Source: Anaeroplasmataceae bacterium
GTDB taxonomy: Bacteria; Bacillota_I; Bacilli_A; Acholeplasmatales; Anaeroplasmataceae
Length of the DNA: 42,035 bases
Assembly: GCA_029067355.1 (NCBI GenBank)
Contig: JAIEEQ010000074.1
Location: 1-42,035, forward strand
Direction of reading: 5' to 3'
Made by a program: the position numbers and the translations under genes. Within the stretch, counting starts at the first letter, position 1, and each line of letters begins with the position of its first letter. Below, in pieces: positions 31,115-36,729 of the stretch. The notes below the pieces were generated by a model. That model was not told where the DNA came from. It ran no database searches and saw nothing but the letters and a program-made list of their open reading frames with translations.

Positions 31115-31340
31115 TTAAAAAAACGTCCTTAAAAAATTAAATTAAGGACGTATAAACCGCGGTGCCACCTTACTTCTAGTATGAAAACTAGCACTTGATG
31201 TCCGTTAACGCCTGGTACGTCTAATTAAAGCTCTCCAAAAGTGTCCTTCCCTATTTTGTCTATGGATGCTTCCACCAACCATCCTCGCTAGTATAGCCTA
31301 AAGCATAGGTACTCTTCTTTCTTCATCAATTTATCATACG
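31115..31340 (-). promoter_or_regulatory. T-box leader of the hisS-aspS operon
   Basis: This tRNA-sensing riboswitch begins near 31339. Stem I contains AGCGAGGAUGGUUGG and GGUGGAAGCAUCC, with GGAUG/CAUCC pairing. The T-box sequence AAGGTGGCACCGCGG (31155-31172 region) is the family hallmark; its UGGN element pairs with the uncharged tRNA 3' end. The terminator is at 31117-31151. In the specifier loop, aligned with the B. subtilis glyQS leader, the sequence is GAAGGACAC. The aligned codon is GAC (Asp), and CAC (His) overlaps it by one base. Regulation by Asp alone is the simple reading; a dual Asp/His reading is possible. Confidence 0.92.
31117..31151 (-). terminator. T-box conditional terminator
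   Basis: ACGTCCTTAA and TTAAGGACGT form a 10-bp stem followed by a T-run on the minus strand. The competing antiterminator uses AAGGTGGCACCGCGG. It lies about 20 bases before the GNAT start. Confidence 0.93.
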
Positions 31341-32914: not shown

Positions 32915-33934
32915 TTAAGATACCAAGACTGTTTCTAGCCTTTTTTCTCCTTCCTCGTAATTCTCTATTTTTTTTGAAAAAAGCTCAAAAAAGATCTGAT
33001 CTACAAATTCCGTTTCCCGTTGAAATTCTGTATCAATATGAAGAGCAGTTAACGTCTTGTATAATGAGGAGACCATTGTTCGTTCATTAAATATAACCTT
33101 CATTGGAAGTCCCTCCTGCTTAAATAATTCATCAACTACGCCAATCGCAAAATCCTGAATCTGTTCTGGCTTACAAGCCACTCGGTGCATCAGATGTTTC
33201 TTTTTCTTTTCATAATATCCAAACAAAATACTTTCATAGCCTCCATCTTCTAACTGCTTAAAGGAAAAGTATCTAGAGATATAGCAAACATCCTCCACAT
33301 AAGTTGCATCCTGATATTCTTTAATAAAGCTTTCATTTTTCTTTTTGAATCGTGGCATAGTACCCAAAACAGCATCTCCTGTATATTTTACAGAGTAATA
33401 GTGCTCTTTAGGATCAAAGGCAGCTAAAACAAGCTTATCCTCTGCAAAGCACTGAACAAGATCCTCACGCTCATTTTTAATCAAGCTAATCAAATAATAA
33501 AGATAAGCAATAACGAGCTTCATCTTTTTTATTGTAAGATATTTATAATCATATCCCTCCTGGAACTCACAGGGAATCACATTATTTTCTAACGAAATAC
33601 GAATTTTATGCTTCTTTAGAAATTGAACATCCTCTTCCAAAAGGTTATTTTTTGATAGTAAAGCAATTGAAATCATATTTGCATAGATTGGATTTAAAAT
33701 TATACCTGTGTGGCTCATATAGCTATCATATAAATAATTGATTCCTGAAGAATTTAAATAAAGCTGAACTCCAGCAGAACTATCTAGCATATGGTCAGTA
33801 CAAACAACAATCCCTTTAGAAGTATCATCTAAAAAATAAAATAAGTCATACTGATTGAATTGCTCAAAAGCATTTAGTCCTCTTAAAAGCTTCATTGCCT
33901 TTCTTAATTCCATATAACATTCTTTATACTTCAC
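32915..33934 (-). CDS. Hypothetical protein, possible DUF6930-like region
   Basis: This is a 339-residue soluble protein with GTG start (AAGGAG 8 nt before). The family is not certain. The middle is helix-rich with one hydrophobic stretch (KLVIAYLYYLISLI) and no signal peptide. The C-terminal 80 residues (GLPMKVIFNERTMVSSLYKTL, IDTEFQRETEFVDQIFFELF) resemble the DUF6930 pattern, in which a 'characteristic residue in position' strand is followed by a helix and a conserved final helix. No enzyme motif is seen. It lies 4 bases after rsmD and 2 bases before the nucleotidase gene, so it is expressed with them. Confidence 0.55.
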   Translation of the reverse strand: MKYKECYMELRKAMKLLRGLNAFEQFNQYDLFYFLDDTSKGIVVCTDHMLDSSAGVQLYLNSSGINYLYDSYMSHTGIILNPIYANMISIALLSKNNLLEEDVQFLKKHKIRISLENNVIPCEFQEGYDYKYLTIKKMKLVIAYLYYLISLIKNEREDLVQCFAEDKLVLAAFDPKEHYYSVKYTGDAVLGTMPRFKKKNESFIKEYQDATYVEDVCYISRYFSFKQLEDGGYESILFGYYEKKKKHLMHRVACKPEQIQDFAIGVVDELFKQEGLPMKVIFNERTMVSSLYKTLTALHIDTEFQRETEFVDQIFFELFSKKIENYEEGEKRLETVLVS

Positions 33935-34487: not shown

Positions 34488-36086
34488 TTATCGTTTAGGT
34501 AAAGACTTCACCTGCTGATAGGTCAACCGCTTACCCATAAATTTTTTATTCTTTATATCCTTTAAGAAACGGGCTGCCGTAGCATTTATTTCTAAATACG
34601 TAACATCCTTTGTAATGATAATTTTCCCAAAATGCTCTCTATGAATAGAAACCTGGTCGTGAAGGTAATTCACAAGCTGGTTTGGTCGAATTTTGTCATT
34701 TTGCCCAATATTAATTGCTATATAAATCCAATTAGAGGACTTCTTTTCAGATTGTGTTCTCTTTCTTGGATGAATGATTTCAATTGGTGGGTATTTGCGA
34801 TCCTCATTTTCATTTAAAAGCTCTAAAAGCCTAATAATGATTGGCGTTGGATCTGTGGTTTTTCTAGCCAAATCACGAATCATATTATCATAGGTATGGT
34901 TTGTGCTTGCAGCTTCTAACCCTTCAATAATGTTGTCTGTTAAGCTCTTTTGAAATTTTAAAGCAATTTGCTTTGGTGTTGGGATTTCCATAAATTCTAG
35001 CTTTGATTTGGTATATGCCTCAATTTCTGCAACTCTAGAATACTGACGATTCGTCGCCAAAGTAATCGCAAGCCCTGTTTTTCCTGCACGACCTGTTCTT
35101 CCTATACGATGAACATAGATTTCATTTTCCTGTGGAAGGTCAAAATTAATGATGGCCTCAACATTTTCCACATCTATTCCTCTTGCAGCAACATCAGTCG
35201 CAATCAAAATATCAATTGAGCCTAATCGAAAGGATTGCATAACTCTATCTCTGCTGAGTTGTTTTAAATCCCCATGAAGTCCATCTGCCTTAAAATGATG
35301 CTCCTGAAGGAATAAAACAAGCTCATCTACCATAGCCTTTGTATTCGCAAAAATCATAACTGATTTCAGCTGATAATAATCTAATAATCGAACTAAAAGA
35401 TATTTCTTATGATCCTTTTTTGTATAATAAATGATCTCCTTAATTTTATCTACAACTCTTGTTTTTTGTTCAATTTGAATTAAATAAGGCTCCTGCATAT
35501 ATTTCTTGCTAGCCTGTTTCACCCAAGGTGGCAAGGTGGCAGAAAAAAGGGAGGTTTGACGAGTTTTTGGAACCTCCTTAAGAATGTTTTCCATATCCTC
35601 CTCAAAGCCCATCTTCAGCATTTCATCTGCTTCATCTAAAACTAGATAGCTAACCTCTTTAAAATCAAGAGTTCCTCTATGTAAATGGTCAATAATTCTT
35701 CCTGGAGTTCCTATGATAATCTGTGGTTTTTTTGCTAAAGCCTTAAATTGCTTTTCATAGGATTCTCCACCATAAATGGTCGTTGCCCTAACAGTAGTAT
35801 AAACCGCAATCTTTTCAATTTCTTTGCAAACCTGTAAGGAAAGCTCTCTAGTTGGACATAAAATCAAAGCCTGGATACTTTTTCTTTTTGGCTCAATATG
35901 TGCCAGCAAAGGAATAGAATAGGCAAAGGTCTTTCCTGTTCCTGTCTGGGCCTGTCCAATAACATCTCTTCCCTCCAACAAATAAGGAATGGCTTCCCTT
36001 TGGATTGGAGTTGGCTCCTCTATCTTATTTTCTTTTAAAGCAGCAAGAATGGCTGCATCAATATTCATACTTAAAAAATCATTCAT
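34488..36086 (-). CDS. DEAD-box RNA helicase with C-terminal DbpA-type RNA-binding domain
   Basis: This 532-residue RNA helicase is probably involved in ribosome assembly or mRNA turnover. Motifs in order: EPTPIQREAIP (Q), AQTGTGKT (I), PTRELSLQV (Ia), GTPGRIIDH (Ib), LDEADEM (II), SATLPPWV (III), IFANTKAMVDEL (IV), TDVAARGIDV (V), HRIGRTGRAG (VI). The last 75 residues (NWIYIAINIGQNDKIRPNQL, GKIIITKDVTYLEIN) match the DbpA/CsdA RRM-like domain. It resembles CshA/DeaD. The promoter at 36112-36140 stands immediately after the terminator of the structured RNA. It leads the operon with rsmD, an unknown gene and the nucleotidase. Confidence 0.95.
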   Translation of the reverse strand: MNDFLSMNIDAAILAALKENKIEEPTPIQREAIPYLLEGRDVIGQAQTGTGKTFAYSIPLLAHIEPKRKSIQALILCPTRELSLQVCKEIEKIAVYTTVRATTIYGGESYEKQFKALAKKPQIIIGTPGRIIDHLHRGTLDFKEVSYLVLDEADEMLKMGFEEDMENILKEVPKTRQTSLFSATLPPWVKQASKKYMQEPYLIQIEQKTRVVDKIKEIIYYTKKDHKKYLLVRLLDYYQLKSVMIFANTKAMVDELVLFLQEHHFKADGLHGDLKQLSRDRVMQSFRLGSIDILIATDVAARGIDVENVEAIINFDLPQENEIYVHRIGRTGRAGKTGLAITLATNRQYSRVAEIEAYTKSKLEFMEIPTPKQIALKFQKSLTDNIIEGLEAASTNHTYDNMIRDLARKTTDPTPIIIRLLELLNENEDRKYPPIEIIHPRKRTQSEKKSSNWIYIAINIGQNDKIRPNQLVNYLHDQVSIHREHFGKIIITKDVTYLEINATAARFLKDIKNKKFMGKRLTYQQVKSLPKR

Positions 36087-36111: not shown

Positions 36112-36140
36112 ATTATACCAAAGAATTTGTTACTTTTCAA
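36112..36140 (-). promoter_or_regulatory. Promoter of the DEAD-box operon
   Basis: TTGAAA (36135-36140), 17-nt spacer and TATAAT (36112-36117). The -35 lies two bases beyond the U-run of the upstream RNA terminator. Confidence 0.8.
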
Positions 36141-36142
36141 TG

Positions 36143-36166
36143 AAAAAAGGTGGCAAATGCCACCTT
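36143..36166 (-). terminator. Terminator of the 190-nt RNA
   Basis: AAGGTGGC-ATTT-GCCACCTT is a perfect 8-bp stem with a 4-nt loop followed by TTTTTT on the minus strand. Confidence 0.92.
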
Positions 36167-36332
36167 GTATCAACAATATAGTGCTAGGAAGGTCGAGAAG
36201 ACTATAATCTTCTACGGTTGAATCCTCTCTTAGTAACATTTAGGGTTCTAGATCGCAATGTTAAGAACGCATCACCTGTTTCCTCTCGGATTCGCTTTCT
36301 ATTTGTTTGAGCTTCGCGGCCATCTTCCTAGC
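36143..36332 (-). ncRNA. Structured 190-nt noncoding RNA, unidentified
   Basis: A transcript beginning at the predicted start near 36332 would be about 190 nt and ends in a clear terminator. No reading frame covers it, and it is richer in GC than its surroundings. The 5' GCTAGGAAG pairs with CTTCCTAGC (36183-36191), closing a 150-nt domain. Inside are GGCCGCGAAG with CTTCTCGACC (8 of 10 pairs), GAATCC/GGATTC, TCTTAACATT with AATGTT..TAAGA, and the competing pairs AGAAGA/TCTTCT and GTTCT/AGAAC, the last of which could form a pseudoknot. The rod with central loop and length recall 6S RNA, and a raiA-type RNA is another option. I find no SRP, RNase P or tmRNA signature. Confidence 0.75.
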
Positions 36333-36338
36333 AATTTT

Positions 36339-36367
36339 AATATACCATAAAATTTTGAAAATGTAAA
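36339..36367 (-). promoter_or_regulatory. Promoter of the 190-nt RNA
   Basis: TTTACA (36362-36367), 17-nt spacer and TATATT (36339-36344), with a start predicted seven bases downstream at the first G of the closing stem. The exact fit of promoter, stem start and terminator is strong support for a real RNA gene. Confidence 0.85.
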
Positions 36368-36375
36368 TAACTCTA

Positions 36376-36729
36376 TTAAAAATAGGACATAATCAAGGAA
36401 ATAATGGAGCATAAGATGAGCAAGGCTCCAACACCAATCATCATATTATCTCCTTTGCTCTCACCTGAGTAATTTTTTTTAGATAAACAGGATAGCAATA
36501 ATGCAATAATACCAACCAGCAAGAGAATGACTGGAATAGCAAAATGCAAGGAAAAATAGGATTTATTCTTAGAATCAAATTCTATAAAGTAAACAATGGT
36601 ACAAGCAATAACAAAAATAAAGGACATGACAATAATTATGCGCATAACCAGATAAGCCATTGTCTTCTTTTGTGGTACTGTTTGATTTTGTCGTTTGATA
36701 TTATTTTTTCCCATAATCTTCTTCTCCAT
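36376..36729 (-). CDS. Small membrane protein of unknown function
   Basis: This is a 117-residue protein with a polar N-terminus (KKIMGKNNIKRQNQTVPQKK) and three membrane helices (IIIVMSFIFVIACTIVYFI, FAIPVILLLVGIIALLLSCL and MIGVGALLILCSIISLIMSY). No family is recognised. ATG 36729 has AGG 7 nt before it. An internal ATG 15 bases downstream (MGKNN) has a better GGAG, so the exact start is open. It is the last gene of the panT-coaX-hydrolase unit and stops 8 bases before the promoter of the structured RNA, without a clear terminator. Confidence 0.6.
   Translation of the reverse strand: MEKKIMGKNNIKRQNQTVPQKKTMAYLVMRIIIVMSFIFVIACTIVYFIEFDSKNKSYFSLHFAIPVILLLVGIIALLLSCLSKKNYSGESKGDNMMIGVGALLILCSIISLIMSYF

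Follow-up and report, generated by a model that had tools for sequence, protein, structure and literature searches.

Which RNA is encoded at positions 36143-36367 of the window, the whole 42,035-nucleotide stretch of Anaeroplasmataceae DNA analysed here, is the question this locus raises. The original prediction placed a structured RNA at these coordinates, which proved right, and left the strand unstated; it named 6S RNA first, raiA-type RNA second, and a class not yet described as a further option. The gene lies on the minus strand, with its 5' end near 36333 and its 3' end near 36143, and the predicted transcript (36143..36333, ends placed from the promoter and terminator) is about 190 nt long and untranslated, with a conserved domain of about 150 nt at 36333..36183. 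The evidence described below leaves us in little doubt that this gene encodes a divergent 6S RNA (ssrS/bsrA type) of the Anaeroplasmataceae bacterium. 6S RNA, a regulator of RNA polymerase that is nearly universal, accumulates in stationary phase and binds the sigma70/sigma-A holoenzyme.

The locus has the organization of a stand-alone gene with a housekeeping-type promoter and its own terminator, as is characteristic of 6S genes. The promoter (36339..36367, minus strand) consists of a -35 element TTTACA, a 17-nt spacer and a TG-extended -10 element TATATT, with a consensus score of 10/12, and a six-base gap separates the -10 element from the closing stem GCTAGGAAG (36332..36324). This promoter type is kept among relatives: all 54 aligned sequences score at least 9/12 at the proper distance, compared with 119 of 1080 shuffled controls. 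At the other end, an intrinsic terminator (36143..36166, minus strand) is formed by an 8-bp stem AAGGTGGCATTTGCCACCTT followed by TTTTTT (six U). The longest minus-strand open reading frame within the RNA has 20 codons' worth of protein (20 aa), and a 50-aa frame overlaps its 3' part. The near-consensus promoter and the perfect terminator of the original prediction are therefore both borne out, and its statement that there is no reading frame holds in the sense that no long one exists.

The predicted minus-strand fold, at -51.4 kcal/mol, is more stable than dinucleotide shuffles of the segment (z -2.79), of which 3 in 200 did equally well. A plus-strand reading was rejected, because the same segment folds less well in that orientation (z only -1.32) and has no promoter in place. 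On the minus strand, the closing stem P1 pairs GCTAGGAAG (36324..36332) with CTTCCTAGC (36183..36191) over 9 bp, and in Acholeplasmataceae 6 of the 9 pairs show two-sided changes. It encloses a large asymmetric central bubble, whose 5' strand (36294..36323) contains the conserved GGCCGCGAAGCTCAAA, near-invariant in both family alignments and aligned through relatives to CCgAaaauuuuu..GGG, the 5' bubble strand of the Rfam 6S family. Above the bubble stands an apical arm with internal bulges: in P3, GAATCC (36288..36293) pairs with GGATTC (36220..36225), with 99% of cells paired and 4 of 6 pairs covarying; in P3b, AACA (36277..36280) pairs with TGTT (36235..36238), with all four pairs covarying; and in the apical hairpin P5, GTTCT (36264..36268) pairs with AGAAC (36245..36249), which is followed by a conserved CCTAAA corresponding to the 6S GGAAnCCuAAA motif. 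The 3' strand of the bubble carries its own hairpin (36196..36213), in which AGAAGA (36213..36208) pairs with TCTTCT (36201..36196), and the outer pair changes from A-U to U-A in relatives.

Covariation had been suggested as a check on the fold, and it supports this architecture strongly. In the first alignment (n = 22), 12 of 30 pairs show two-sided changes that keep pairing, and 57 compensatory cells were counted, compared with 20.3 in shuffles and 3 to 15 in slid controls; 86% of cells are paired, which falls to 39-50% when the alignment is slid. The other-family alignment (n = 25) gave 73 compensatory cells against 20.2. Taken together, these elements (closing stem, large asymmetric bubble whose 3' strand carries a hairpin, and bulged apical arm) make up the architecture of 6S RNA. 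The AGAAGA/TCTTCT hairpin anticipated in the original prediction is real and covaries; its competitor is more likely to be the 5' strand of the bubble than the closing rod. None of our computations lends support to the pseudoknot that was also proposed. The alternative helix between the 5' and 3' strands has a mean z of -1.26 against shuffles over 54 sequences, but it is only suggestive, since the window's own copy gives no more than z -0.6 despite the family average.

Searches with the known Rfam families gave no match on the window RNA at gathering thresholds, and the 6S model RF00013 returned nothing on it even at E 10 and nothing in the window's genome. The sole relaxed matches on the RNA at E 10, rli28 and SraG, scored 18.9 bits (cutoff 45) and 17.9 bits (cutoff 50), respectively, and were dismissed as chance. 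Across 61 genomes of the order, RF00013 had no match above its cutoff; it returned just three weaker ones, and these all fall on this RNA (G036:C77:68661-68760-, G040:C28:5701-5799- and G058:C11:34367-34517-). Each overlaps, on the correct strand, a place found independently by R1, a covariance model built from the window RNA and its family relatives (22-sequence alignment) in which no 6S information was used. When the G036 and G058 copies were scanned alone, 6S was the best Rfam family for both, with E 2.9e-4 and, over the whole model 1-187, 7.1e-3, respectively. The best RF00013 score in the order, which falls on a relative of the window RNA, is 27.7 bits against a gathering score of 46.4 bits, the latter being an annotation cutoff and not a biological feature. 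The Rfam search proposed at the outset yielded no significant match on the window RNA, yet the sub-threshold matches in its relatives point to 6S RNA.

The raiA-type RNA (RF03072) is similar in size to the window RNA and shares its Firmicutes distribution; no tool result favors it, and its model matched none of 41 genomes at E<=1 and nothing on the RNA at E<=10. We give this second option of the original prediction next to no chance.

The reverse searches carry more weight. We used R1 together with R2, a covariance model built on Acholeplasmataceae and further families within the order (25-sequence alignment); neither was given a 6S sequence from outside the order. On 22 Bacilli loci with Rfam-certified 6S genes, R1 produced 23 matches at E<0.05 (best, 9e-12), and all 23 fell on annotated 6S genes, tandem copies included, covering 19 of the 22 loci. 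When R2 was run over 296 genomes of the class, 66 of its places fell outside the order. For genomes in which Rfam also sees 6S, 31 of 32 agree with it in both position and strand, and 21 of these exceed the Rfam cutoff. Because both models land on certified 6S genes without any outside 6S sequence, we may conclude that the relation is one of homology and not of mere likeness, and it is seen in both directions between RF00013 and this family. The 6S option is therefore supported through the relatives and through searches in both directions, and since this evidence supports 6S, the proposal of a class not yet described was wrong.

The same R2 search, in 34 class-level genomes of other families, found 6S-like RNAs where RF00013 is blank, with E values down to 7.7e-8 (for example, G256:C17:63617-63768, G244:C7:16894-17038 and G253:C1:442915-443061). 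These are probably further 6S genes, which the refined models bring to light in Bacilli families where Rfam misses them.

Sequence signatures match as well. The series GUGUGAAUGCUUA...UAAGAAUCCUAAA...CCACC occurs both in a certified 6S RNA and in the window RNA's family, and in the alignments to RF00013 the family's CCCAAA falls on the 6S 5' bubble strand, GUGNGAAUGCC...GGAAUCCYRAA on the apical arm, and CCCACCUUGAAC on the 3' bubble strand. By comparison with 6S/SsrS RNA of the B. subtilis 6S-1 type, the window RNA shares the closing stem, the central bubble with a 3'-strand hairpin, the bulged apical arm, the GUGNGAAUGCC...GGAAUCCYRAA and CCCACCU motifs and a sigma-A-type promoter of its own, and there is usually one gene per genome. 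It differs in its conserved domain of about 150 nt and its shortened 5' bubble, and none of the Acholeplasmatales genomes tested has a copy that reaches the Rfam cutoff. That shortfall and the lack of any RF00013 match on the window RNA speak against 6S, as do the 9-bp closing stem, a 5' bubble that lacks several RF00013 model positions, the change in the pRNA hallmark in the window's genus, the failure of R2 alone to recover the window copy, and the want of a convincing copy in phytoplasma-like genomes (the last three described below).

These same departures from RF00013, the short closing stem and the altered bubble, would also fit a 6S descendant with a new partner, for example one that binds core RNA polymerase instead of the holoenzyme. 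Ms1 RNA of Actinobacteria is a precedent for such 6S-like folds (PMC9130861). It resembles the window RNA in its fold and in having RNA polymerase as partner, the latter inferred here, but it belongs to another taxon and binds core polymerase, and the comparison implies no sequence link to the window RNA (PMC9130861). Retention of the signature sequences and of the predicted template strand argues for normal 6S use, and we regard a changed partner as highly unlikely.

For 6S RNA of the usual kind, the mode of action is established: it occupies sigma-A polymerase where promoter DNA would otherwise bind, and is freed once the enzyme has transcribed the 5' bubble strand into a product RNA (pRNA), for which GG at positions 4/5 or 5/6 is a hallmark in other species (PMC8414754). 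Guided by how the family aligns with the 5' bubble of 6S RNA and by these pRNA hallmarks (PMC8414754), we place a predicted template at 36305..36321 (minus strand). The predicted pRNA would be 5'-GUUUGAGCUUCGCGGCC-3', starting from C36305 with an uncertainty of 1 to 3 nt. In Acholeplasmataceae the near-invariant CCCAAA template would give UUUGGG, with GAG in place of GGG in the window's genus. Polymerase binding and pRNA synthesis by the window RNA are suggested by analogy with these 6S RNAs: it would imitate an open promoter, bind the housekeeping sigma-RNA polymerase holoenzyme and restrain the enzyme as growth slows, and once nucleotides are available again, polymerase would use the 5' bubble strand (from about 36305 to about 36321) as template for pRNA, which would refold the 6S RNA and release the enzyme. 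The 3' strand of the bubble may either form its hairpin or pair with the 5' strand; this alternation, which is related to the competing helices of the original prediction, plausibly belongs to the refolding step.

Acholeplasmatales are small-genome, wall-less bacteria, and the lineage of the window consists of gut bacteria. Conservation of the gene's DNA extends to 27 of 60 relatives, and no genome of the window's genus lacks it. At E<=1, R1 recovers the RNA from 107 of 160 Acholeplasmatales genomes, in most cases at a single place per genome, and R2, which alone fails to recover the window copy, adds genomes missed by R1, so that the RNA occurs in most of the order, generally in single copy. 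Among the matches listed, the named records with the RNA are Anaeroplasma, Anaeroplasmataceae and Acholeplasmatales genomes; matches outside Acholeplasmatales to a short DNA pattern, again among those listed, were mostly treated as chance, the pattern being short. The weakest R1 matches, in phytoplasma-like genomes (E 0.007-0.09), were likewise dropped as chance, their surrounding sequence being without the motifs. In genus g26, which comprises small phytoplasma-like genomes (e.g., G101, G115 and G116), neither R1, R2 nor RF00013 gave a convincing 6S copy, and these reduced genomes may have lost 6S RNA or carry a more strongly diverged form. No Acholeplasmatales member tested is called by the current Rfam 6S model, and our literature search found no paper joining 6S RNA with Acholeplasmatales, the 6S distribution survey of Wehner et al. 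(2014) lying outside the scope of that search. With copies now covering most of the order, 6S control of RNA polymerase becomes testable in Acholeplasmatales, and the shortened form found there helps to tell the indispensable parts of 6S RNA from the rest.

Across the order, the 6S gene is co-directional with its neighbors and often lies downstream of the rplT region, which we take from its sequence to encode the L20 protein; on its downstream side are a helicase, rsmD (a 16S rRNA methyltransferase-like gene), an M42-type peptidase or others. In lactic acid bacteria, by contrast, the 6S neighbors are rarA/uspA (PMC8414754). In the window, the upstream neighbor is a 117-aa membrane-protein-like ORF without a Pfam match (36376-36729, minus strand); among the family loci examined, 12 have it upstream of the 6S gene. 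The downstream neighbor is a DEAD-box helicase (34488-36086, minus strand) with a C-terminal DbpA RNA-binding domain (PF03880), beside rsmD.

Since a gene of the same orientation follows closely behind the RNA at the examined loci, the RNA might instead be a cis-acting leader, a riboswitch-like attenuator in which the terminator, or the closing stem and U tract in relatives, gates transcription of the helicase or rsmD. In several relatives (e.g., L018, L177 and L190) the U tract abuts the ribosome-binding site and leaves no space for a second promoter. However, the downstream gene varies by genus (DEAD-box helicase, rsmD, M42-type peptidase, a small membrane protein or a large membrane/EAL-like protein), which speaks against a dedicated cis-regulator; the window helicase has a separate promoter, TTGAAA-17-TATAAT, at 36140..36112; and the conserved core is explained by 6S homology. 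We find such a leader very hard to credit. The DbpA RNA-binding domain is known for 23S rRNA binding, and a leader specific to a DbpA-type helicase was considered on account of this domain and rejected, because the neighbor differs between genera.

A link between 6S RNA and its downstream genes may nevertheless exist in another form. In many Acholeplasmataceae the U tract is directly 3' of the closing stem, so the stem of this compact 6S variant may also terminate transcription, and read-through would then couple 6S folding to expression of rsmD, the helicase or the peptidase; we put this forward tentatively and consider it rather unlikely.

Two further features of the window deserve mention. 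A 339-aa ORF without a Pfam match (32915-33934, minus strand) lies between rsmD and a 5'-nucleotidase-like gene. At 31141-31335 (minus strand) there is a T-box leader (RF00230; 96.3 bits, just over the cutoff), the only Rfam match in the window at gathering thresholds; it adjoins, on their upstream side, a GNAT-like ORF and a hisS-like ORF, and presumably controls histidyl-tRNA synthetase.
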